Origin: Candidatus Gastranaerophilales bacterium | GTDB taxonomy: Bacteria > Cyanobacteriota > Vampirovibrionia > Gastranaerophilales > Gastranaerophilaceae | Reading direction: 5' to 3' | Length of the DNA: 33,331 bases | Assembly: GCA_944324195.1 (NCBI GenBank) | Contig: CALUVJ010000014.1 | Coordinates: 1 to 33,331, forward strand | Position numbers and translations under genes: made by a program | In this document: in pieces, positions 12,191 to 33,331 of the stretch | Position numbering within the stretch: the stretch's first letter is position 1 | Layout of the letters: each line of letters starts with the position of its first letter | Notes under the pieces: model-generated | Told to the model about the DNA's origin: nothing | Database searches by the model: none | The model's input: only the letters and a program-made list of their open reading frames with translations

Positions 12191-15100
12191 ATGTTAAATA
12201 GAATAAAGAAAAATTTAATAGCTGTATTTGCCGGCATGCTGCTCGCATTACCGGTATTTGCGGTTGACTCTACGGTTACATATATTAATATCAATAACAA
12301 AGCATATCAGGACGTAGAAATCGCAATTACCGACAATGCGGAAATTCTCATACCGTTTAAGCAGCTTGCCGACATATTTAACATTCCTTATAACGCTAAC
12401 AGAGTCGATAAACAAATCGGATTTAAAACTTTTGACGGTAAAGAGGGTGTAATTAATCAGAACGGAGTTTTTGTTCAGGATTACGCGATTTCAAATAAAA
12501 AACCTGTTTTTCTCCGGCAGGGAATTATGGATGGAGTATTCAACGAAGCTTATATTACGCCTGATGCGGCATCAAAGATTTTTGGCGCAAAAATCAACGG
12601 AAATTACGAGGACTTAACCCTTACCGCCCAAGTTGAAAGAGATATTCCTCTGCTTCATAAACCTGAAAACCAAGCTGATGACAAGAGCCCTAAAGCTTAT
12701 CAGGACGTAGTTGCTCCTAAAAAACCGGGGTTAATTACACTGAATACAATCGGTCTGCGCTCAAACCTGATTAATGACAGTTTGACCGTCAGAGGAACAA
12801 ATTACCGTACCCTGAACGATACCTTCTCCGGAAGCACTCAGGCAAGTATTAACGGTAAAATTCTTGACGGAAAATACCGCATTGAAGCCACTGAATACCA
12901 CTATCGCTCTGACGCGTTTATGTTCGGCGGTATAACCGGTGCGTACAAAAACAGTATCAAAGATAAGCAGACCGGTAAAGAAAAACTCTGGTACGAGTTA
13001 GGTAAAGTCAAAGGCAGAAGCGATGTTGACGCTTCTATCGGTACAAATATTTTCGGCGCGCAAATCTGGAGTTATGACTACGAAAAAGAACGTCCGGATC
13101 AGCTTAACGGATATGTAAAACCGACAAGTCTCGTAAGAGTTACCGTAAACGACGGCGAACCGGTTTTATTAAGCACTTATGCCGGATACTATACATTAAA
13201 GGACGTACAGCTTCCGAGTCCTGTCAGGACTCTCAAAATCGAAGAGGTTAACGAGGACGGCTCCGTAGAAGTCATAAAAGAAGAAAAATATTCAATGTAC
13301 GGCGACAGACCTTTCGAAAAAGAACACAGAGGTTCTGCCTACGCCGGTGTATGGGGCTATCAGAACAGATTTTTCAGAGAAGGAAGCAATATCTACAGAG
13401 GCAACAACAAAAAGGTTACTGCAGGTATTGACTATCAGTACGGCGTTAAAGACAATTTGACTTTTGAATCACGCTGGACAGGCGATAAAATTTACGAAAA
13501 AAACGGTTCAAGCCTTTATTACCGGGTTCCGACAAACGATACTCTGCTCGTAAGCGGAACGCAGAAGAGTGTAAACTATCTTGAAGGTGCAACTTCCCTC
13601 AACAGTTTGGAATGGGTTAATCCGAAAAACAAAAATATTAAACTCCGCGCAACTGCAGGTGCAAGCGTGGCGCACGACGTGAGAGAAGAACATACACACG
13701 CGGGCTACATCGGAAAACTCGCCGGAGATTACGAAAAAGACCTCTCAAAATACGAAAAAGGCATATTTAAGCCGAAACGTTTCTTCGGAAGATTGGAACT
13801 TTTCCAGACGTCGCCTGATTTTTACATAGCAAGCAGTGATTCAACCTCCAAAAATGACCGCACGGGAGGAAAAGTCTCCGGAGGGGTCAGCTTTAATTCC
13901 ACAAACGCAAGCGGAAGCTACAGCAGATATTATTCCAATATGAACCACCGTTACAGAGGCGGTACAATTAAATTTGATGAAGCTTCAATCAATGCGTCTA
14001 CTAAAATTCCTAAGGTTGCAAGTCTGAGATTTAACAGTTACTACAGACGCGGTGAAAACGAACTCGGCAGAAACAAAAACTATTTTTATGATGCAAATGC
14101 TTCCCGTGACATAAAACGTTGGGCAAAAATTCAGGTCGGCCGCCGCGAAAGCTTATACGATACGCAATATGACGTTCAAACTCCAATAGAGAGAAATTAT
14201 CATTCAAAATACGCGGATAATTACGCGCAATTAGATGTGCCGATTCCTGGAAATCACGGTAAATTTACGCTCGGACATAACATTGTAAGATACAATACCT
14301 CTTCTTACAAAAACGGATATAACATGTTCCGCTTCGGTTACACTTTCCCGACCTGGAAAAGACTTACACTCGGGCTCGGTTTCGGATTCCGCTACCACGG
14401 GCAGGGCGGAAACGATTTTAACGTCAACCTCGGGTACAGAGCAAAATCCGGACAAACAATTGCAGTTGCTTACCAGTATTCGGAAAACGGCGGCTTCTTT
14501 ATTGATAACATGTTTACGCCGCAAACAAACAGACATTCAATTAACTTTATATTCAACGATGCGTTTCAGGTTTTCCATAACGGTTTGAAGTCCGTCGGTA
14601 CGGAGGATATGGACAAAGGTATTTTCGAAGCTGTCGCATTTGTTGATGTCAATAAAAACGGCAAATTCGATAAGAAAGTCGATGTTCCGATAAAAGACGT
14701 TCCTCTTATTACAAGCTGGACAGGTGAGACAAATTATACAAACAAACGCGGAAAAGCTTATTCCGCAAGTTTAACGCAGGGAATTTATACGGTTTCGCTT
14801 GATATGAACAAGCTTCCGATTACGGTTGCTCCGCAGACAAATGATATGATAAACAAAAAAGTTAAAATTGATGGCGGACAAACAACATTACTCGAAATTC
14901 CGCTTGTAAGTACCGTAGGTTCGGTCTCTGGAAAGCTCAGAATATTTGACGACTTTGCCAGAGATTTAAAAATAACCGATTTTGTTGTTGTGCTTCTTGA
15001 CGAAGAAGGAAACGAAGTTAATTATTCAACGGTCGATTCATCTGGCGAATTCTATATTTCAGGTCTGGCGCCCGGAAGGTATAAACTCAAACTGGATGAA

Positions 15101-15232
15101 AAATTTATAAATGCTTACGGTCTCGAGTGTCTGCCTTATAAGAGCGAAATAAGTATCTTTATTCCGTACGATTACAATACGCCGGTTGACATAACGGAGC
15201 AAAGCCTTGAATACAAGACTCTGGCTCTGTAA
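12191..15232 (+). CDS. Fimbrial usher-like outer-membrane protein
   Basis: This 1013-aa exported protein has a signal peptide (cleavage near VFA-V, residue ~24). Residues ~25-150 form a domain resembling copper-amine-oxidase-N/stalk domains rather than the classical usher PapC_N domain. From ~180 to ~810 it has an aromatic, alternating pattern typical of a beta-barrel. It includes a usher plug-like segment (VRVTVNDGEPVLL...YYTLKDVQLPS, then IEEVNEDGS, around residues 314-360). Residues ~815-1013 are carboxypeptidase/SdrD-type beta domains (FVDVNKNGKFDKKVDVPI; GEFYISGLAPGRYKL). Ushers form the pore that assembles and exports chaperone-delivered pilins. The length is within the usual usher range. 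It appears more GC-rich than flanking genes. Confidence 0.75.
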   Translation: MLNRIKKNLIAVFAGMLLALPVFAVDSTVTYININNKAYQDVEIAITDNAEILIPFKQLADIFNIPYNANRVDKQIGFKTFDGKEGVINQNGVFVQDYAISNKKPVFLRQGIMDGVFNEAYITPDAASKIFGAKINGNYEDLTLTAQVERDIPLLHKPENQADDKSPKAYQDVVAPKKPGLITLNTIGLRSNLINDSLTVRGTNYRTLNDTFSGSTQASINGKILDGKYRIEATEYHYRSDAFMFGGITGAYKNSIKDKQTGKEKLWYELGKVKGRSDVDASIGTNIFGAQIWSYDYEKERPDQLNGYVKPTSLVRVTVNDGEPVLLSTYAGYYTLKDVQLPSPVRTLKIEEVNEDGSVEVIKEEKYSMYGDRPFEKEHRGSAYAGVWGYQNRFFREGSNIYRGNNKKVTAGIDYQYGVKDNLTFESRWTGDKIYEKNGSSLYYRVPTNDTLLVSGTQKSVNYLEGATSLNSLEWVNPKNKNIKLRATAGASVAHDVREEHTHAGYIGKLAGDYEKDLSKYEKGIFKPKRFFGRLELFQTSPDFYIASSDSTSKNDRTGGKVSGGVSFNSTNASGSYSRYYSNMNHRYRGGTIKFDEASINASTKIPKVASLRFNSYYRRGENELGRNKNYFYDANASRDIKRWAKIQVGRRESLYDTQYDVQTPIERNYHSKYADNYAQLDVPIPGNHGKFTLGHNIVRYNTSSYKNGYNMFRFGYTFPTWKRLTLGLGFGFRYHGQGGNDFNVNLGYRAKSGQTIAVAYQYSENGGFFIDNMFTPQTNRHSINFIFNDAFQVFHNGLKSVGTEDMDKGIFEAVAFVDVNKNGKFDKKVDVPIKDVPLITSWTGETNYTNKRGKAYSASLTQGIYTVSLDMNKLPITVAPQTNDMINKKVKIDGGQTTLLEIPLVSTVGSVSGKLRIFDDFARDLKITDFVVVLLDEEGNEVNYSTVDSSGEFYISGLAPGRYKLKLDEKFINAYGLECLPYKSEISIFIPYDYNTPVDITEQSLEYKTLAL

Positions 15233-15270: not shown

Positions 15271-15296
15271 AGCTGCCAAACGGCAGCTTTTTTTTT
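15271..15296 (+). terminator. Rho-independent terminator after the usher gene
   Basis: AGCTGCC (15271-15277) pairs with GGCAGCT (15282-15288) around an AAAC loop, followed by nine T. It ends the fimbrial transcription unit and separates it from the aryl-polyene-like operon. Confidence 0.9.
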
Positions 15297-15336
15297 GCAG
15301 TAAACGTTTATGCATAATCGGCTAAGATTTATATTG

Positions 15337-15342
15337 TATAAT
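15337..15342 (+). promoter_or_regulatory. -10 box of the acyltransferase gene, leaderless
   Basis: TATAAT lies exactly 6 nt before the ATG at 15349, so the transcript should begin at or next to the start codon. No good -35 box is apparent. Confidence 0.5.
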
Positions 15343-15348
15343 AATTTT

Positions 15349-16056
15349 ATGAAATATATTCGTTCAATAATAGCGGTGTTTTGTTTCGGAATATTTGGTG
15401 CAGGCTCAATTGTTCTTAACTTTTTATTGTTTCCGTTTATTAAAAACAATAAAGAATTATGTTCGGATATTATTCACGGTGTCTGGAAGTTCTTTTTGTA
15501 TTTGATGATGGCATTTGGACTTTTCAGGCTTGATATAAAAAATCTTGAAAAGATTGAAAATAAGGTCATTGCAGCAACACATCCGAGTTTTATTGATATT
15601 GTAATTTTAATCGGGCTTATTCCGCGGACAACTTGTGTGGTAAAAGAGTCGCTGGCCCGTAATCCTATTTTAAAACATATTATCGAAAGTATTTTTATCA
15701 CAAACGATGTTGATATCGATATTTTAAAAGCGGATTCAAAACGGATGCTGGATAAGGGTTTTAATTTCGTCGTCTTTCCGGCAGGGCGGAGACATCGGAA
15801 GGATGAGCATTTGAAGATGAAAAAAGGTGCGGCTTTAATAGCCCTGAATGCGGGAAAAAACATTGTACCTGTAAAAATTTCCAATGACGGGGATTTTTTG
15901 TATATTCATGAACCTTTTTACGCGGTAAACAACAGGTGTGTAACCTTTGAACTGGAGCAGATGCCGGAAATTAATATAAGTGATTACGCTGAAGATACGG
16001 AAATTTCAGCAAAACATAAGATTACGAAACAAATAGAGAAAGAATTGTATAGTTAA
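15349..16056 (+). CDS. PlsC-like acyltransferase of the aryl-polyene-like operon
   Basis: This 235-aa protein has an N-terminal hydrophobic segment (residues ~4-30) and an LPLAT domain. The catalytic H-box is intact (HPSFID, His78-x4-Asp83), but the FPEG motif reads FPAGRR (143-148), replacing the usual Glu with Ala. In described aryl-polyene (APE) clusters such an acyltransferase helps join the polyene to its lipid anchor; that role is inferred here. The ATG at 15349 is preferred over upstream ones because of the TATAAT box 6 nt ahead. A 313-bp gap with hairpin repeats and a second promoter separates it from the carrier-protein genes. Confidence 0.8.
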   Translation: MKYIRSIIAVFCFGIFGAGSIVLNFLLFPFIKNNKELCSDIIHGVWKFFLYLMMAFGLFRLDIKNLEKIENKVIAATHPSFIDIVILIGLIPRTTCVVKESLARNPILKHIIESIFITNDVDIDILKADSKRMLDKGFNFVVFPAGRRHRKDEHLKMKKGAALIALNAGKNIVPVKISNDGDFLYIHEPFYAVNNRCVTFELEQMPEINISDYAEDTEISAKHKITKQIEKELYS

Positions 16057-16357
16057 TAAAAAATGACACCCATCAATTAAGATAAGTGTCACTTTAGCCA
16101 TTTACAGGTTATGGCAGTTGCAGCTGTCGCCCCGATATTGTTATTATAACTTATTTTATTGATTTTTCAATCCTGCGGGTAAAATTATTCGTTTTCATTC
16201 AATGGAGCTGCCAAAATTAACTCCAACCAAGTAGGTCGGCTTTACCAAGCCGACATTAACTTTATCCTTAAAATTTACCTCCGAAAGCCGGCTAGTCGGT
16301 TGGGCATACCTGCCCAAAAAGATTTTTTTGTTTGAAGAATATTTGTATAGTTTATGA
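16057..16357. repeat. Intergenic region with hairpin repeats before the ACP genes
   Basis: No gene is seen here. It contains a weak TGACAC/GTGTCA pair (16064-16069 and 16086-16091, long loop), a perfect 8-bp hairpin GTCGGCTT/AAGCCGAC with a TACC loop (16235-16254), and GGGCA/TGCCC with a TACC loop just before a T-rich run (about 16301-16330). The middle one belongs to the GTAGGTC hairpin family; the last could serve as a terminator for the acyltransferase transcript. Confidence 0.5.
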
Positions 16358-16363
16358 TATAAT
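16358..16363 (+). promoter_or_regulatory. Extended -10 promoter of the acyl carrier protein gene
   Basis: TGATATAAT is a perfect extended -10 element (TGn-TATAAT). It ends 6 nt before the ATG at 16370, predicting a leaderless mRNA for the operon starting with the first carrier protein. Confidence 0.6.
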
Positions 16364-16369
16364 ATCGGT

Positions 16370-16627
16370 ATGAGTATAAAAGAAGATATAAAAAAATTAA
16401 TAATTGAATCACTGGCGCTTGAGGAAATAACTCCTGAGGATATCAAAGACGATGAGCCGTTGTTTAATGAAGGACTCGGACTTGATTCTATAGACGCGTT
16501 GGAACTTGGTATGGCAATTAAGCGCAAGTACAATATTTCTATGGAAGAAGATAAGGATGTGAATAAAAAGTATTTTTATTCCGTAAATACTTTGAGCGAA
16601 TTTGTGGAGTCAAAAATCAATGGCTGA
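16370..16627 (+). CDS. Acyl carrier protein 1 of the aryl-polyene-like operon
   Basis: This 85-aa acidic helical protein is an acyl carrier protein. Ser40 in GLGLDSIDALELG is the site for the 4'-phosphopantetheine arm that carries the growing chain. Length and fold pattern are normal for a free-standing ACP. It is the first of two adjacent, different ACPs, as in APE clusters. Its stop overlaps the start of the second ACP gene (ATGGCTGA). The mRNA is predicted to be leaderless. Confidence 0.9.
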   Translation: MSIKEDIKKLIIESLALEEITPEDIKDDEPLFNEGLGLDSIDALELGMAIKRKYNISMEEDKDVNKKYFYSVNTLSEFVESKING

Positions 16628-16874
16628 GAAGTTCACAAAAGAGCAGATTCTTGACGAGTTAAAAAAGATTCTGACAGAAGAGCTGGAAATTGATGAAAAT
16701 GATATTAAACCGGAGGCAAATTTATTTCAGGATTTGGATCTGGACAGTATTGATGCGGTTGATATAGCTGTTCGTATGCAGAAATTTACCGACAAAAAGC
16801 TTTCACCTGCAGAGTTTAAGAAGATTCAAACGATTAATGACGTAGTGGAAGCTGTATATGCTCTTCTCGGGTAA
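16620..16874 (+). CDS. Acyl carrier protein 2 of the aryl-polyene-like operon
   Basis: This 84-aa second acyl carrier protein has Ser43 in DLDLDSIDAVDIAVRM as the phosphopantetheine attachment site. The start at 16620 overlaps the stop of the first ACP gene by 8 nt, so they are translationally coupled; an upstream in-frame ATG would add six residues inside the previous gene. The downstream membrane-protein gene starts before this gene's stop. In characterised APE systems the two ACPs are not interchangeable; whether that holds here is unknown. Confidence 0.9.
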   Translation: MAEKFTKEQILDELKKILTEELEIDENDIKPEANLFQDLDLDSIDAVDIAVRMQKFTDKKLSPAEFKKIQTINDVVEAVYALLG

Positions 16875-17280
16875 AATCCGGCGGATAATTAAGGCTTTGG
16901 CGCCGTTTATCGGCATGTTTGCCGTTATTGGTTTGTTTCATTTTACCGACTTTGTTTTGCTGAAATATTATCCGCCTGTAATGAATTTTTGTCTGTTTTT
17001 TATCTTTTTTTCTTCTCTTTTTCAAGAGAGGACTGTTATACAAAAAATTGCGCTGGCATCTGATCCCAATTCAAATGAAGCTGTTATGAACTATACCAGA
17101 AATTTAACTTATATCTGGGCTGTGTTTACGTTTTTAAACTTTCTTGTATCAGCAGGTACTGTTTTTATGTCAGAAAAAGTATGGGCATTGTATAACGGAT
17201 TTATTTCTTATCTTCTTGTAGGAATAATTTTTATTATAGAATATATAGTAAGAATAAATTTTATGAGGAAGCATGGATAA
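16858..17280 (+). CDS. COG4648-like integral membrane protein
   Basis: This 140-aa protein has about four membrane helices (residues ~12-33, ~38-54, ~88-106 and ~110-132), with short polar linkers including SDPNSNEAVMNYTRNLTYIW. By position (between the ACPs and the AMP-ligase) and by pattern it corresponds to the small COG4648-type membrane protein found in APE clusters. Its molecular role is unknown in the family as far as I know. Both ends overlap neighbouring genes (17 nt with ACP2, 8 nt with the ligase), showing tight operon packing. Confidence 0.7.
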   Translation: MLFSGKIRRIIKALAPFIGMFAVIGLFHFTDFVLLKYYPPVMNFCLFFIFFSSLFQERTVIQKIALASDPNSNEAVMNYTRNLTYIWAVFTFLNFLVSAGTVFMSEKVWALYNGFISYLLVGIIFIIEYIVRINFMRKHG

Positions 17281-18589
17281 GTTTGAGGAGTTATTAAATA
17301 ATTTTATAACTACAGGGGAAATTACTTTCAGAACCGGCGGAACGGTTTCAGAAGGTAAGTTTGTAAAGGCGCATCTTTCAAATATGAAGGCAGAAATTGT
17401 TGATATGAAAGAGCAGCTCGGTTTGGATAGCAGTTATAAGTTTATATCTACAACAACTCCAAATCATAGGTGGGGATTCACTTTTCAGCTTTTGTATCCG
17501 GCACTTACCGGCGGAGAGATACAGTATAAGAGAGTTAATTATCCTGAAGATATTAATGTCGAAAATGCGGTTCTGGTAACGACTCCGTCTTTTCTTGAAG
17601 CTATGAGAAAGTATGGTGATTTGCCTAAGATTAATCCGAAAATTATTATGACAGCAGGGGCAAAGTTAGAAGATATAACTTTTGAGTTTGCAAAAAGTAT
17701 TGCAGAAAGAGTCATTGAAGTTTACGGAAGTTCAGAGAGCGGAAGTATTGCGTGGAGAGAGGATTATAAAAACGGTAGAATGAAGCTTTTCAAAGGTATG
17801 AAAGTGCTCGAAAACACGGAAGATTATACGAAGATTCACTCGGATTATTCTTCCTGCAATCCTGTTGTTTTAGAGGATAGAATAAAGGTTTATGATAACG
17901 GTGAGATTGAGTTTCTGGAGCGCAGGGGGCGTGTTTTGAAGGTTCAGGAAAAGCGGATTATGTCATCTGATGTGGAAGAAGAACTTAATAAACTGGATTT
18001 TGTAAGCGAGTCATATTGTCTTGAATTTGACAGAAAGCTTGCTTCTTTATGCGTTTTGAATGATGAAGGAAAAAAGTTTTTGCTGGAAAATGATAAACTT
18101 ACGCTTGTAAAAAAACTAAAATCGCAATTAACAGATAAGTTTGAAATTATTCCGCAGCGTTGGAAATTCTTTGATGAGATTCCGAGGAAAGAAACGGGAA
18201 AATTTGATAAAGATTTAATAAAAGAGTTGTTTGGGTTGAATTTATCTCTGCCTTTGATTCTTGCCCGACAGATAACGGACGGATATGCGGATTTAAGAAT
18301 GACATTTATCAATAACAGTAACTTTTTCAAGGGACATTTTGAAGGCATGCCGATTTTGCCTGGAGTTGTGCAATTGTTTTATGCAAACTGGTTTGCAAAG
18401 CTTGCGTTTGGAATTGATTGTTCTCAGGGACAAATCAGAAGAGTTAAGTTTTCAAACATTATTAAACCGCTAGAAATTGTAGAATTAGAGCTCAAGAAAA
18501 CGGATTCGGGAGTCAGTTTTAGGTATTATAACGAGGAAAAAACTTTCTCCTCAGGAATACTACCGGTAAAGAGCTTTTTGCAGGAATAA
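17273..18589 (+). CDS. Acyl-ACP synthetase (AMP-ligase)-hotdog dehydratase fusion
   Basis: This 438-aa two-domain protein combines steps usually made by separate genes in APE clusters. Residues 1-~320 are an adenylate-forming ligase: a phosphate-loop region (FRTGGTVSEGK, ~19-29), the YGSSESG motif (~151-157) and the C-terminal Lys motif PRKETGKFDK (~304-313). Residues ~325-438 are a FabA/FabZ-like hotdog dehydratase with FFKGHFEGMPILPGV and likely catalytic His355. The ligase lacks roughly the first 100 residues of a typical family member. Predicted work: load a starter aryl acid onto an ACP and dehydrate beta-hydroxyacyl-ACP. It overlaps the upstream gene by 8 nt. The fusion is seen directly; activity is inferred. 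Confidence 0.85.
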   Translation: MDKFEELLNNFITTGEITFRTGGTVSEGKFVKAHLSNMKAEIVDMKEQLGLDSSYKFISTTTPNHRWGFTFQLLYPALTGGEIQYKRVNYPEDINVENAVLVTTPSFLEAMRKYGDLPKINPKIIMTAGAKLEDITFEFAKSIAERVIEVYGSSESGSIAWREDYKNGRMKLFKGMKVLENTEDYTKIHSDYSSCNPVVLEDRIKVYDNGEIEFLERRGRVLKVQEKRIMSSDVEEELNKLDFVSESYCLEFDRKLASLCVLNDEGKKFLLENDKLTLVKKLKSQLTDKFEIIPQRWKFFDEIPRKETGKFDKDLIKELFGLNLSLPLILARQITDGYADLRMTFINNSNFFKGHFEGMPILPGVVQLFYANWFAKLAFGIDCSQGQIRRVKFSNIIKPLEIVELELKKTDSGVSFRYYNEEKTFSSGILPVKSFLQE

Positions 18590-18592
18590 ATT

Positions 18593-19009
18593 ATGAAAAA
18601 AATAGTAACAGAATTGAAAATAAAAGTGCCGTTTTATGATCTTGATCCAATGAATATTGTCTGGCATGGAAATTATGTAAAGTATTTGGAGCAGGCAAGG
18701 TGTGATTTTTTTGCCAAACTAGGATATGATTATATGCAAATGTACGCTGACGGCGTGATGTACCCGATAGCAAAAATGGATTTCAAGTTCATAAAATCTG
18801 CAAAATTTGAGGATAATTTAATAGTCCGCTGTACTCTAAAGGAACTTGAGCCTGCAATCATTATAAAATATGATATTGTAAGCGAGGATGGAGAAAAGAT
18901 TTTATCCGCTCACACAATGCAAATGGCTGTTTCGACAAAGACCGGAGAGACGTTGTTTGAAGCGCCTGAAAGATTGAAAAAGGCAATAGAGGATTTTGAA
19001 GAAAAATAG
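18593..19009 (+). CDS. Hotdog acyl-CoA/ACP thioesterase (4HBT/YbgC type)
   Basis: This 138-aa single hotdog-domain thioesterase shows the family active-site region YDLDPMNIVWHGNYVKYLEQAR, with Asp16 as the likely catalytic acid and the NYVKY helix following. It probably hydrolyses an acyl thioester, as in the thioesterase found between the dehydratase and LolA-like genes in APE clusters. It starts 3 bp after the fusion gene's stop and ends 1 bp before the next start, so it is co-transcribed. The exact substrate cannot be read from sequence. Confidence 0.85.
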   Translation: MKKIVTELKIKVPFYDLDPMNIVWHGNYVKYLEQARCDFFAKLGYDYMQMYADGVMYPIAKMDFKFIKSAKFEDNLIVRCTLKELEPAIIIKYDIVSEDGEKILSAHTMQMAVSTKTGETLFEAPERLKKAIEDFEEK

Positions 19010-19010
19010 T

Positions 19011-19517
19011 ATGAATAAATTTTTTGTTTTTTTATTTTTGCTTATATTTATGCCGCTTGCTAATGCTGCGGTTTTTGACCATGAAATGAAGCTGGAAGAG
19101 ATTTCTAAAAAGCTTCCGGAGCTCGCGAGTACAAAGTGTAAATTTAAGCAGGAAAAAATCATGTCCGGCATGGTTTTGAAATCTTCGGGCGATTTTACTT
19201 TTGAAAAAAATAAAGGTGTAACCTTCTATACAAATTATCCGATACAGAGTACTACTTCTTACACTTCAAGAGATTACAGACAGATAAATAATGTAATTAC
19301 TGCTATTTCCAGCAAATCTTATGCAAAGCTTGAAAAAGATTTTCGATTTTTCTATGAAGGAAATGAGAAAGTCTGGACGCTGGCATTGCTTCCAAGAGCA
19401 GGATCTAAGGCATTTGATTACTTAAAATCTATAGAGATTTCGGGAGACGGGGCTAAGATTACAAAAATTATTATTCTCGCCTGTGATAAAACACAAACAA
19501 CAATTTGGTTTATATGA
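19011..19517 (+). CDS. LolA-like periplasmic carrier protein
   Basis: This 168-aa exported protein has a signal peptide (MNKFFVFLFLLIFMPLANA, cleavage after ~19). The mature part fits the LolA/LolB beta half-barrel: an early CKFKQEKIM strand, then KSSGDFTFEKNKGVTFYTNYPI, where LolA proteins carry the substrate-binding sheet. In APE clusters LolA-like proteins are thought to ferry the lipid product across the periplasm. The ATG at 19011 is preferred to an upstream ATG inside the thioesterase gene. Its TGA overlaps the exporter's ATG. Confidence 0.8.
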   Translation: MNKFFVFLFLLIFMPLANAAVFDHEMKLEEISKKLPELASTKCKFKQEKIMSGMVLKSSGDFTFEKNKGVTFYTNYPIQSTTSYTSRDYRQINNVITAISSKSYAKLEKDFRFFYEGNEKVWTLALLPRAGSKAFDYLKSIEISGDGAKITKIIILACDKTQTTIWFI

Positions 19518-21484
19518 TTAAAAGAGTTTTATTTATAATATTTTCAATATTGTTTTTTATTTTTGCCTTTCTAAGAGCAAACCCTGTTGAAGTTGATTTG
19601 ATGGGTGCGTTTGTGAATCCGAATTCTCAGACGGAAAAATATCTGGTTAAGCTTGCAAACATATCTTCAAAAAGCGTAAATGTAATTTTTGAGGGCGGAA
19701 GTCCTGCTGAGGCTGAGGAGTTAAAATCGGATTTTCCGCAGATGAAAACAGATTTTCAGGACGTTGCGGAGGTTTATAAAAACTATCCGGCTAACTTTTT
19801 GGCGGAAAAAAAGAGGGAACTTTTAAAAACAAAAAAATATTCCGAACTCCAAAAAGAGGCGCTGGAGGGGCTTTATAATCCTTTGGGAATTTATATTGCG
19901 CCGCCGATTAGCGACCCTTATCTTCTGGCGACGGATTTTGTCCTCTCTAATGCAGGATTATATGACGACAGCGTGAGAGAGTTCGGCGGAAAATATTATG
20001 CGGTTTCGCACTTCAAGGTTCAGAATAACAAAGAACTTAAAACCCTAATAAACGCTGCGGAAGGGAAAAGTGTTTATCTCACCGGAACTCCGGTTCATTC
20101 GTATTTTGCCAGCACAAAATCAAATAACGAGATTAATTATATTTGTATAATCTCGACTCTGGCTCTTGTTCTGTTATGCAAATTCTATTTTCGCTCAATA
20201 AAAATTTTGATTCCGATAGGTTTGAGTATCCTGTTCGGATTTTTGCTCGGATATTCGGTCTCTTCGCTTGTTTTTGAAAAACTCCATGTACTCACGTTTG
20301 TTTTTTCTACCTCGCTTATCGGGATAAGTTTGGACTATTCGCTCCATTATTTTCTTAAAAAGGATAACAAGGTTTTTAAAAACAGCCTGACTTCTTCCAT
20401 GCTTACGACTGTTATCGCATTTTTGTTTCTGTATTTTTCTAATATAGAAGTTTTAAGGCAGGTCGGGATTTTTACCGCTTTCGGACTTATCGGAGTTTAT
20501 GCGTTTGTCTTGATTGTTCTTCCTATGTTTGGAGAGTTTAAGGATTTTAATACCTTTAAAAGATTCCCGATACCTGAAAAAACAATTCTTGCAATTGTTG
20601 CAGCCGTTATCATTCTTGGAAGTTTCAATATAAAATTCAACGACAATATCAAGAGTTTTTACACTCCGCCTGAAAATCTTCTGAAGGCTGAAAATTTGTA
20701 CAAAGAAGCTTTTAATACCGGAAATACCGAATTTTTGATTGTTAAAGGTAAAAATACGGATGAAATTTTGGAAAAAGAAGAAGCGCTCAATTTAAAAAAC
20801 TCAATCGGGCTGAGTAATTTTGTCTCTTCTAAAAAGCGTCAGGAAGAGAATTTGAAACTGGTTAAGGATTTGTACAAAAACGATTTGAAAAACTACGAGA
20901 CAAAAACGGGGATAAAATTTGAGCCTGCGGAAGGAAAAGTTTATGACGTAGAAAAATTCCCTCTGAAATCAGAGTTTTATCTTGATAACGGGGCGTCTTA
21001 TATTATAGTAAAAGAACATATAGACGGGAGCCTGAATCCTGCTGATGAAATCTCTAAGATGATGAGAATACGAAGGATTGACTGTCTTTTACTTCTTCCT
21101 TGCACTCTTTCGGTTTTATTTGTTCTCCTGAGTTTTATGTATGGATTTAAAAACGCGTTGAGAGTAAGTATTTCACCGATTTTGGGGATTTTATTTACGA
21201 TCGGAATCCTGTCGTTGTTTGGCGAAAGCCTGAATCTTTTTCATATTCTCGGACTATTCCTGATTGCCGGTTTCAGCCTTGATTATTCGATTTTCAGACT
21301 CAACTGCGGCGAAGGCTCAAAGGATGCGGTCTTTATGTCGGCGGCGTCTACCGCTTTTTCGTTTATGCTCCTGGGCTTTACGGGATTTAAACTTGTAAGC
21401 TCAATCGGAATAACACTTTTTATCGGAATTGTAACTTCATATATATTGAGTGTTTTGATAATTAATGAAAAACGTATGAAATAA
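19514..21484 (+). CDS. MMPL/RND-family lipid exporter
   Basis: This 656-aa inner-membrane transporter is arranged as two RND halves: one helix (residues ~2-20), a periplasmic domain (~21-210), five helices (~211-345), then a seventh helix (~360-378), a second periplasmic domain (~380-520) and five more helices (~522-652). Each half has a membrane Asp motif, GISLDYSLHY and AGFSLDYSIF, typical of MMPL proton relays. It is short for the family but complete in plan. The start overlaps the LolA-like gene (ATGA). It most likely flips or extracts the lipid-linked product. Gene order thioesterase-LolA-MMPL matches APE clusters. Confidence 0.88.
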   Translation: MIKRVLFIIFSILFFIFAFLRANPVEVDLMGAFVNPNSQTEKYLVKLANISSKSVNVIFEGGSPAEAEELKSDFPQMKTDFQDVAEVYKNYPANFLAEKKRELLKTKKYSELQKEALEGLYNPLGIYIAPPISDPYLLATDFVLSNAGLYDDSVREFGGKYYAVSHFKVQNNKELKTLINAAEGKSVYLTGTPVHSYFASTKSNNEINYICIISTLALVLLCKFYFRSIKILIPIGLSILFGFLLGYSVSSLVFEKLHVLTFVFSTSLIGISLDYSLHYFLKKDNKVFKNSLTSSMLTTVIAFLFLYFSNIEVLRQVGIFTAFGLIGVYAFVLIVLPMFGEFKDFNTFKRFPIPEKTILAIVAAVIILGSFNIKFNDNIKSFYTPPENLLKAENLYKEAFNTGNTEFLIVKGKNTDEILEKEEALNLKNSIGLSNFVSSKKRQEENLKLVKDLYKNDLKNYETKTGIKFEPAEGKVYDVEKFPLKSEFYLDNGASYIIVKEHIDGSLNPADEISKMMRIRRIDCLLLLPCTLSVLFVLLSFMYGFKNALRVSISPILGILFTIGILSLFGESLNLFHILGLFLIAGFSLDYSIFRLNCGEGSKDAVFMSAASTAFSFMLLGFTGFKLVSSIGITLFIGIVTSYILSVLIINEKRMK

Positions 21485-21524: not shown

Positions 21525-21548
21525 ATAAATACTGAAAGGGAAATGTTT

Positions 21549-22127
21549 ATGAAAACAGTGTCTAAAGGAGTCGAATTTGATCCGGGATTTGCCCCGTTTA
21601 TACTGGCTTTTAGAGGAACTATCGAATATTTGTATTTAGATATAAATAAATTTAAAAATCTTTCACAAAGAAAAATGAAATTCAGACAATATTATAAAAA
21701 GTTTTTGGAACTTTTTTATAATAATTTGGGGTTTTACATTGGATGCCTTTTATGGGCTGCTTATATTAAAACCCTGCCGGAGCAGGAAATATTAAATAAT
21801 TCATGTCTCGGCAGTAAATACGATGAAGCGGAAAATACCGCCGAAACAGATTTTATGATAAGGTTTCTTGAACTTTTTCCGAAAGATATGAAATATTTTC
21901 TCGGCATTAACTATACGATTAATTCTGATGATATGAAAGTTCTTGAGTTATATAAGGATTTCTTAATAATCAATAAAGGATTCGTAAATTCCAAAACAAA
22001 TAAAGATATACTTTTGCCAAAAGGCATGAAAACTGATGGTGCGGAAAACTTTAAAGATAAAATTGATGAAATTTTGAAAACCGAAAACCTTTCAAAATTC
22101 GTTGATTGCAAAAATTTAATTTTATAG
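21549..22127 (+). CDS. Hypothetical cytoplasmic protein
   Basis: I do not recognise this protein of about 192 aa. It is mostly helical and charged, with no signal peptide and one moderately hydrophobic stretch (NNLGFYIGCLLWAAYI, about residues 58-73). The AAAGGG ribosome-binding site gives better spacing to the ATG at 21549 than to one at 21543. It ends directly before the adenine deaminase start (the AGGTGA that serves as that gene's ribosome-binding site overlaps its stop), so the two are co-expressed. A link to purine metabolism is only positional. Confidence 0.65.
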   Translation: MKTVSKGVEFDPGFAPFILAFRGTIEYLYLDINKFKNLSQRKMKFRQYYKKFLELFYNNLGFYIGCLLWAAYIKTLPEQEILNNSCLGSKYDEAENTAETDFMIRFLELFPKDMKYFLGINYTINSDDMKVLELYKDFLIINKGFVNSKTNKDILLPKGMKTDGAENFKDKIDEILKTENLSKFVDCKNLIL

Positions 22128-32034: not shown

Positions 32035-32388
32035 AAGACCCCTCTCCCGAATTCCTAAGCTCGCAGGGCTCGCCAAGAAATTCTTCCCTCTCCCGGGGTA
32101 AATGAAATCAAGTTTGATGTGAAATTACAAGCCGTACGCAAGCAAAGGGGCGAGGGGGTAAATGAATTGGGCTGGGAATAGAGCTCCCTCCCTGAATGAG
32201 GGAGGGTTGGGGTGGGTGATAATTGGTGAAGGGTGAAGGGAAATAAAACAAAAAACTCTCAACGCAACTGGCCAGTAGTAAGTCATTCGAGGGTGACCTG
32301 GAAAAATAAAACAAACGTGGAATGATAACCAATGTCACCCGACAAGTCAAAGTGAAAAATGTCATTGCGAGCGTAGCGAAGCAATCCA
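32035..32388. repeat. 354-bp direct repeat, copy 1
   Basis: Almost identical to 32692-33044 (few substitutions and a one-base gap). It contains CCCCTCTCCCG-type sequence, the CCCTCCCT/AGGGAGGG hairpin (32186-32206), the AACAAACGTGGAATGATAACC block, and a short GTCATTGCGAGCG...GCAATCCA palindromic repeat at its end. The interval 31886-32034 before it shows nothing I can identify. No gene is seen. Confidence 0.9.
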
Positions 32389-32427
32389 GTGGACTGCCGC
32401 GAAAATCAAAGATTTTCTCGCAGTGAC
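32361..32427. repeat. Compact copy of the GIY-YIG-associated inverted repeat
   Basis: GTCATTGCGAGCG...GCAATCCA is followed directly by GTGGACTGCC and the CTCGCAGTGAC right end. Only a few bases lie between the two ends, so this is the fully collapsed form of the element. The same left half, without a right half, ends the second copy of the direct repeat (33017-33044). Confidence 0.7.
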
Positions 32428-32515
32428 AGGGGGTGCAGTCGTGAAGAGTGAAGAGTGAGGGGTGAGGGGAAAGCGAATTGTAGAGCAGGCTTTGCCTGAC
32501 AATAACATAAAAAAA

Positions 32516-32601
32516 TGTCATCCCGAACTTGGTTCGGGATCTTACCCAAAATCAAGTATAACGCCAAGTTGGTAAGATGCTGAAACAAGTTCAGCATGAC
32601 A
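32516..32601. repeat. Second type of inverted-repeat element (TGTCATCCCGAAC)
   Basis: It starts TGTCATCCCGAACTTGG and ends with GGTAAGATGCTGAAACAAG followed by TTCAGCATGACA. The two ends are about 31-nt inverted repeats; each end is itself a hairpin (CCCGAAC/GTTCGGG and GCTGAAC/GTTCAGC) and the differing bases remain paired within each hairpin. No gene lies inside. Confidence 0.75.
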
Positions 32602-32640
32602 AATAACAACCGATATCACCTGACAGGTCATAGTTAAAAC

Positions 32641-32691
32641 GTCATTGCTTGACATGTACAATTGCGAGGAGCGTTAGCGACGAAGCAATCC
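32641..32691. repeat. Left-end repeat interrupted by a 17-bp insertion
   Basis: GTCATTGC is followed by TTGACATGTACAATTGC before GAGGAGCGTTAGCGACGAAGCAATCC resumes the normal repeat. The inserted piece can be read as a 12-bp TTGACATGTACA flanked by two copies of ATTGC. Confidence 0.7.
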
Positions 32692-33044
32692 AAGACCCCT
32701 CACCCGAATTTCTAAGCTCGCAGGGCTCGCCAAGAAATTCTTCCTTCTCCCGGGTAAATGAAATCAAGTTTGATGTGAAATTACAAGCCGTACGCAAGCT
32801 GAGGGGCGAGGGGGTAAATGAATTGGGCTGGGAATAGAGCTCCCTCCCTGAATGAGGGAGGGTTGGGGTGGGTGATAATTGGTGAAGGGTGAAGGGAAAT
32901 AAAACAAAAAACTCTCAACGCAACTGGCCAGTAGTAAGTCATTCGAGGGTGACCTGGAAAAATAAAACAAACGTGGAATGATAACCAATGTCACCCGACA
33001 AGTCAAAGTGAAAAATGTCATTGCGAGCGTAGCGAAGCAATCCA
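32692..33044. repeat. 354-bp direct repeat, copy 2
   Basis: Matches 32035-32388 with small differences (CTCACCCGAATTTC versus CTCTCCCGAATTCC; one base shorter at the CCCGGG run; GCTGAGGGG versus GCAAAGGGG). The hairpin is at 32842-32862. It ends with the same short palindromic repeat. No gene is present. Confidence 0.9.
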
Positions 33045-33331
33045 ATTGCAGCGCAACCCGCTTGTAGTAATGTCAGCAGAGGGTGACTGCGGAAAAATAA
33101 AAAATATTAACCCCTCACCCCTACCCCCTCTCCCACAAGGGGCGAGGGGAAGGCGCGACCCAATGTCACCCGACAAGTCATAGTGAAAAATGTCATTGCG
33201 GGGGTAAATGGATTTTATTAGTGACTAAGTGATTAAGTGACTGAGTGACTAAGAGGGTAAATGAATTGGGTTGGTAAGTGGAACTACAAGCTTAACGTCA
33301 TTGCGAGGAGCGAAAGCGACGAAGCAATCCA
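33045..33331. repeat. Repeat mosaic at the window end
   Basis: This non-coding tail has a CCCTCTCCCACAAGGGGCGAGGG stretch near 33125-33148, a TGTCACCCGACAAGTCA block near 33163, a GGGGGTAAAT block near 33199, the octamer array AGTGAYTR (four units, 33220-33251) and the left end of the GIY-YIG-associated repeat (33297-33331) cut by the window edge. No gene is seen. Confidence 0.8.

Follow-up and report, generated by a model that had tools for sequence, protein, structure and literature searches.

Genes of a putative aryl-polyene-type pathway dispersed across a Candidatus Gastranaerophilales genome

The DNA analysed here, hereafter the window, is a 33,331-nt stretch from Candidatus Gastranaerophilales bacterium that forms contig C14 of the draft genome G000; unprefixed coordinates are positions within it. 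The window carries an operon (15310-21484) encoding ApeD, ApeE, ApeF, ApeG, a fused ApeH-ApeI, ApeK, ApeL, and ApeM, which is very probably a fragment of a functional aryl-polyene-type (APE; type II polyketide) pathway, the rest of which is encoded on contigs C80, C110, and C8 of the same genome. This account is built on gene presence, gene order, co-retention, and purifying selection, from which we infer the enzymatic activities, the starter, and the product. An earlier note on this DNA had described a minimal operon lacking ketosynthase (KS), ketoreductase (KR), and second dehydratase (DH), and had proposed that the chain-building enzymes are supplied from elsewhere or that the product is not a polyene. 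None of these enzymes adjoins the operon, and both the absence and the word minimal describe the locus correctly; neither holds for the genome or the pathway as a whole, as the missing enzyme types are encoded on C80, C110, and C53.

The draft metagenome-assembled genome (MAG) G000 totals 1.84 Mb over 115 contigs, with a completeness of 84.5% and a contamination of 3.1%. A ketosynthase scan of it recovered five KS genes, one of which, on C95, is of the FabF type present in nearly all relatives. On C80, a dehydratase, a ketoreductase, and a KS lie in a row and were assigned to ApeP (match to 6qsr_B; PF22817 above cutoff), ApeQ (above the NF004200 cutoff), and ApeR (best solved-structure matches 7f27 and 4ewg), the last being closest among named records, at 82% identity, to a protein of L124, a Candidatus Gastranaerophilales MAG, and most of the records next in similarity belong to that order too. 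C110 encodes a KS assigned to ApeO (best solved-structure matches 6qsp_A and 7f28_B) and a divergent, half-size KS-like protein of 180 amino acids (aa) that matches 6qsp_B and PF13723 and corresponds to ApeC, the chain-length factor (CLF). The KS, KR, and DH motifs are intact, and an LpxL-type acyltransferase is encoded at C8:30212-31075. The complement of G000 thus comprises the KS-CLF pair ApeO-ApeC, a second KS (ApeR), ApeQ, and the dehydratases ApeI and ApeP, with the window-type genes spread over C14, C80, C110, and C8 rather than co-localised. The search of the rest of the genome for APE-type KS/CLF and KR genes, which the earlier note had recommended, was therefore productive (C80, C110, and C53), and its proposal of supply from elsewhere was borne out by matching-type ApeO/ApeC, ApeP, ApeQ, and ApeR that lie on other contigs and are co-retained in eight species.

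Co-retention was assessed in 37 genomes, 22 of which, including G000, belong to the same genus. The window-type ligase, the C80-type ApeR, the C110-type ApeO, ApeM, and the LpxL-type acyltransferase were each found in the same eight genus genomes (G000, G002, G003, G007, G011, G012, G019, and G021); window-type genes are thus present in seven relatives of G000, where the earlier note had suggested looking for the operon. These seven lack any other APE set, G010 carries a contiguous cluster of another type, and the remaining 13 of the 22 have no APE set. All five searched genes persist in each of the eight lineages despite their unlinking. Pairwise ratios of nonsynonymous to synonymous substitution rates (dN/dS), taken among G000, G002, and G019 where dS could be estimated, lay at ∼0.02-0.16 throughout the genes measured, a set without LolA and the LpxL-type acyltransferase, and at 0.04-0.08 for the shortened ligase domain; these values are rough, many comparisons having dS >1 and some having reached saturation. 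Because strong purifying selection acts on every gene measured, the window-type genes are best read as a dispersed working pathway, and the data do not support a decayed copy.

Comparison with relatives suggests how the genes came apart. In G010, G027, G032, C53, and the public MAGs L125-L130, L133, and L158, the cluster is contiguous and divergent, in the order R-Q-P-O <> C-D-E-F-G-HI-K-L-M, and the window gene order matches the right arm of these clusters exactly and so is not due to chance. Together the relatives form a graded series, with contiguous clusters at one end and four or five separate loci at the other, and the breakpoints differ by lineage: the cluster is cut between D and E in G011, before M in G021 (with a contig break inside apeO), between P and O in G003, between F and G in L124, at P|O, F|G, and L|M in G007 and G012, and at P|O and C|D in G002 and G019, the latter additionally at K|L. 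The dispersed clade received a support of 100 on a concatenated tree. Within that tree L124 and G021 keep P beside O yet fall among lineages lacking this junction, which was therefore probably cut three times. For G000 the C|D separation is beyond doubt, as apeC is directly followed by a SpoIID gene and apeD is preceded by an usher-like gene. The same usher-like block follows apeM in G003, in the opposite orientation, and an inversion of the D-to-M segment would account for the C|D break as well as the changed neighbour. Because the sequences flanking the fragments are for the most part not conserved from one species to the next, general genome scrambling may account for the dispersal.

Several other observations concern the rearrangements. 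In G031, from another family of the order, the cluster has its own D|E split, with the halves ∼70 kb apart on one contig (L121 and L049; G031:C21). A matrixin-type metalloprotease gene (L007:4525-5076) adjoins apeR solely in G000, G002, and G019. A family of dispersed, partly palindromic repeats occurs in the window (32186-33275 and 155-204), at L007:7487-8049, L008:1-266, and L280:6924-6999, and thus also at the contig ends beside apeP and apeO, and is a possible driver of both rearrangement and assembly breaks. Public MAGs titled Brachyspira and Heliobacteriaceae (L126 and L159) bear APE-type ketosynthases; L126 has a complete Gastranaerophilales-type cluster, and its record is probably misnamed.

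In the pathway proposed for G000, the shortened ApeH would load a starter acid onto an acyl carrier protein (ACP), and the ApeO-ApeC ketosynthase/chain-length factor, together with ApeR, would extend it with malonyl units carried on the second ACP. ApeQ would reduce and ApeI and ApeP would dehydrate in each round to give a conjugated polyene, which would pass to a lipid through ApeK and two acyltransferases, ApeD and the LpxL-type enzyme, and ApeM, ApeG, and ApeL would carry the product to the outer membrane, where it would be anchored as a pigment. The ancestral cluster would have been contiguous, and stepwise rearrangement within the genus would have dispersed its genes while every enzymatic step was kept.

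A second APE gene set in the assembly bears on this account. Contig C53 (L006, 4034-13515) holds a contiguous, divergent 13-gene cluster, its last gene (apeM) cut by the contig end, that comprises O-P-Q-R and C-D-E-F-G-HI-K-L-M with its own ACPs and exporter and a full-length ApeHI, and that is closest to the clusters of G010 and the goat-gut MAG L127. Its composition fits G000 without being decisive (guanine-plus-cytosine content 36.8%; tetranucleotide correlation of 0.98 with the window). The cluster may be genuine or a binning contaminant: full-length homologues of a neighbouring 1043-aa gene product are lacking in the genus, and contamination of the bin stands at 3%. The concatenated tree places the window-type sets and the C53-type sets in different clades, and the window set has its own partners whether or not C53 belongs to G000. 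The earlier note had held that a complete cluster elsewhere, with its own ACPs and exporter, would make the window operon a decayed copy; such a cluster does exist, and the operon is not its decayed copy. Although C53 bears the contiguous set and the window ApeH lacks its N-terminus, as would be expected if C53 were the sole producer and the operon a decaying, redundant copy, this very unlikely explanation is largely refuted by the low dN/dS of the window-type genes, the seven other species that have the dispersed type without the C53 type, the separate existence of window-type O, C, P, Q, and R partners, and the possibility that C53 is a contaminant. Less probable than decay is that the operon works with the C53 KS, KR, and DH, which are at least in the same assembly, and that the C80 and C110 genes belong to something else: the two sets are in separate clades, C80- or C110-type genes are still linked to window-type genes in G011, G021, G003, and L124, and, again, the C53 type is absent from seven species. 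The least probable of the explanations weighed here, suggested by the lack of KS or KR at the locus, is that the operon's product is a simple exported aryl or acyl-ACP conjugate; against it, the co-retained genes of the matching type include those for a KS, a CLF, a KR, and two DHs, and the earlier suggestion of a product other than a polyene is likewise not supported, since a full polyene-building enzyme set is present.

Some observations weigh against a dispersed, functional APE pathway. The species marker was FabF, rpoB having been dropped (no match in G000, G014, and G019), and its tree is shallow with many unresolved forks; the eight genomes form one clade on it (support 99/95) and thus represent one inheritance, not eight independent co-occurrences. 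All eight are draft MAGs. In G000, the C80 end beyond apeP and the C110 start beyond apeO are copies of the same dispersed repeat, and the P|O separation in this genome alone could be an assembly break; it takes comparison with G002 and G019 to make it certain. The second Gly of the ApeH phosphate-binding loop (P-loop) is missing in all eight genomes, and starter loading is not assured, because ApeH is both truncated and P-loop-degenerate. Of enzymes that might supply a starter, chorismate lyase (PF04345) was not found in the 37 genomes, and just one of them, G030, itself devoid of an APE set, yielded an aromatic ammonia lyase (PF00221). The MAG status of all genomes, the repeats at the C80 and C110 ends, and the break of G021 inside apeO at a contig end also leave room for the dispersal to be an artefact of assembly or binning, with real genomes contiguous. 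This we consider less probable than decay of the operon and more probable than a partnership with C53, since the P-Q-R and O-C fragments of G002 and G019 are internal to 20-65 kb contigs in which other genes, over 7-27 kb, occupy the partner's place, apeC is directly followed by a SpoIID gene in G002 as in G000, 15 kb and 12 kb of other genes flank the window operon, and G000, G002, and G019 have in common both this separation and the matrixin gene beside apeR.

Within the dispersed APE pathway, the starter unit, and hence the head group of the product, is the least certain point. The window ApeH lacks ∼100 N-terminal residues relative to relatives, the ApeHI homologues of contiguous clusters being 533-544 aa long (those measured), and the extent of the loss varies among the eight genomes (483-484 aa in G007 and G012, 452 in G011, and 435-441 in the others). 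The YGSxE, Asp, Arg, and Lys motifs of ApeH (A5/A7/A8/A10 residues) are invariant in all eight. A predicted model of the window ApeHI (mean predicted local distance difference test score, pLDDT, 80; predicted template-modelling score, pTM, 0.50) retains an adenylate-forming (ANL) core spanning residues 1-219 (Z 17-19); short forms of the ANL fold do exist, as the solved structure of a protein of 350 residues (4gs5) demonstrates. The modelled fold and the conserved motifs suggest that the window ApeH is probably a compact, still active ligase.

An O-methyltransferase and the LpxL-type acyltransferase adjoin apeM in the contiguous clusters of G010, G027, and G032. The acyltransferase is kept in all eight dispersed-type genomes and the O-methyltransferase in G011 and G021; the latter was not found in the other six, including the 84%-complete G000. 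G003 retains an O-methyltransferase relic between apeM and the LpxL-type acyltransferase (L041:12616-12804, E 4e-10). Two parts that would act on an aromatic head group, the ApeH N-terminus with its P-loop Gly and the O-methyltransferase, thus appear to be eroding. The negative searches for starter enzymes say little on the shortened ApeH, because genomes with full-length ApeH also lack these enzymes, drafts are incomplete, and other sources are possible. The product is probably still a polyene, its aryl cap being less certain. That the clade is re-tooling the pathway toward a polyene without the usual methylated aryl head is a tentative and, on balance, unlikely reading; it is suggested by the strict retention of elongation, reduction, dehydration, and export genes even when unlinked, while the head-group parts erode, and by the failure to find a known 4-hydroxybenzoate- or coumarate-forming enzyme.

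All genes of the operon, and the hairpin before it, are on the forward strand. It opens with an apeD-like PlsC-type acyltransferase gene (15310..16056; PF01553 E 5e-14), assigned from the position of apeD beside apeC/apeE in contiguous clusters, and preceded by a putative terminator-like hairpin and T-run between the usher-like gene and apeD (15271..15288; consensus scan). A 313-bp intergenic gap with hairpins (16057..16369), shared in part with G019 and absent in G002, separates apeD from apeE. The genes of the apeE-apeM stretch overlap or abut one another, the pattern expected of a single transcript; promoter-like sites were at chance level. The two ACPs are distinct, each scoring above the cutoff of a different ACP model and each with an intact DSID motif: apeE (16370..16627) matches NF006617 (PRK09184) with 86.4 bits against a cutoff of 70, and apeF (16620..16874) matches NF003757 (PRK05350) with 106.2 bits against a cutoff of 65. 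The 140-aa membrane protein at 16858..17280 has no Pfam match and was assigned to ApeG by position and synteny (58-93% identity in relatives). The fused ApeH-ApeI (17273..18589, 438 aa) joins a shortened acyl-AMP ligase (∼residues 1-318; PF00501) to a hot-dog dehydratase, identified as ApeI by best solved-structure match (3esi and 6qsr_A), with a PF22818 score (E 1e-5) slightly under cutoff. It is followed by the apeK thioesterase of the YbgC/FadM hot-dog type (18593..19009; TIGR00051, 73.9 bits against a cutoff of 68.7), the apeL LolA-like periplasmic carrier (18996..19517; NF053544 LolA2_flexi E 2e-6, with syntenic homologues), and the apeM MMPL/RND exporter (19505..21484; TIGR03480 E 1.4e-10), which was seen solely in genomes with an APE set. 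The profile scores of ApeL and ApeM are under curated cutoffs, and synteny and co-occurrence support their assignment as carrier and exporter; apeL of G021 was not found in the sequence stretches examined. The genes that the earlier note had listed at 16370-21484 are all present in the order it gave, ACP, ACP, membrane protein, thioesterase, LolA-like, and MMPL as named, except that its separate ligase and dehydratase are one fused protein and that the operon starts further upstream, at apeD.

Downstream of apeM lies a gene for a 194-aa protein of unknown family (21543-22127), the G002 homologue of which is instead near the apeO-apeC fragment. Upstream, the usher-like outer-membrane protein (12191-15232, 1013 aa) has a C-terminal SdrD_B-type domain; it was considered as an APE component and rejected, since orthologues also occur in G006, G014, and G017, which have no APE genes, and none was found in the APE-bearing G007, G011, and G019.

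The clade displays, among living species, graded stages in the dismantling of a gene cluster whose every enzymatic step has stayed under selection; whether function requires clustering, or only horizontal transfer does, can thus be put directly to the test. A co-localisation rule would score G000 as being without a chain-building pathway at the window locus. Because no report of aryl polyenes in Gastranaerophilales was found in the literature searched, an APE pathway in these gut-dwelling relatives of cyanobacteria may not have been described before.

Compared with known systems, the pathway is a dispersed variant of the aryl polyene pathway. Relative to the APE cluster of E. coli CFT073, Xenorhabdus doucetiae, and Acinetobacter baumannii, G000 has homologues of apeC, D, E, F, G, H, I, K, L, M, O, P, Q, and R (by profile, structure-sequence match, or position); the apeO-P-Q-R order of E. 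coli (PMC8253772) is kept in the contiguous relatives, and ApeC is half-size here as it is in the APE crystal structures (PMC8358021). The differences from the E. coli type are that the G000 genes lie at three or four loci, that ApeH is shortened and fused to ApeI, that an LpxL-type acyltransferase is present where the glycosyltransferase/acyltransferase ApeJ is known (ApeJ itself not having been searched for), that neither apeN nor apeA could be recognised in the stretches read, and that an O-methyltransferase of this lineage's type was not found. The contiguous Gastranaerophilales clusters (G010, G027, G032, L125-L130, L133, L158, and C53) share the same 13 genes and divergent layout and differ in their contiguity, their full-length ApeHI (in those measured), and, in G010, G027, and G032, the O-methyltransferase beside ApeM. 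With the flexirubin clusters of Bacteroidota the pathway shares a related aryl-polyene logic, and the LolA2 and FlxB profiles were matched under their cutoffs; the KR scores above a FabG-family cutoff and below that of FlxB, and the match to DarB is negligible.

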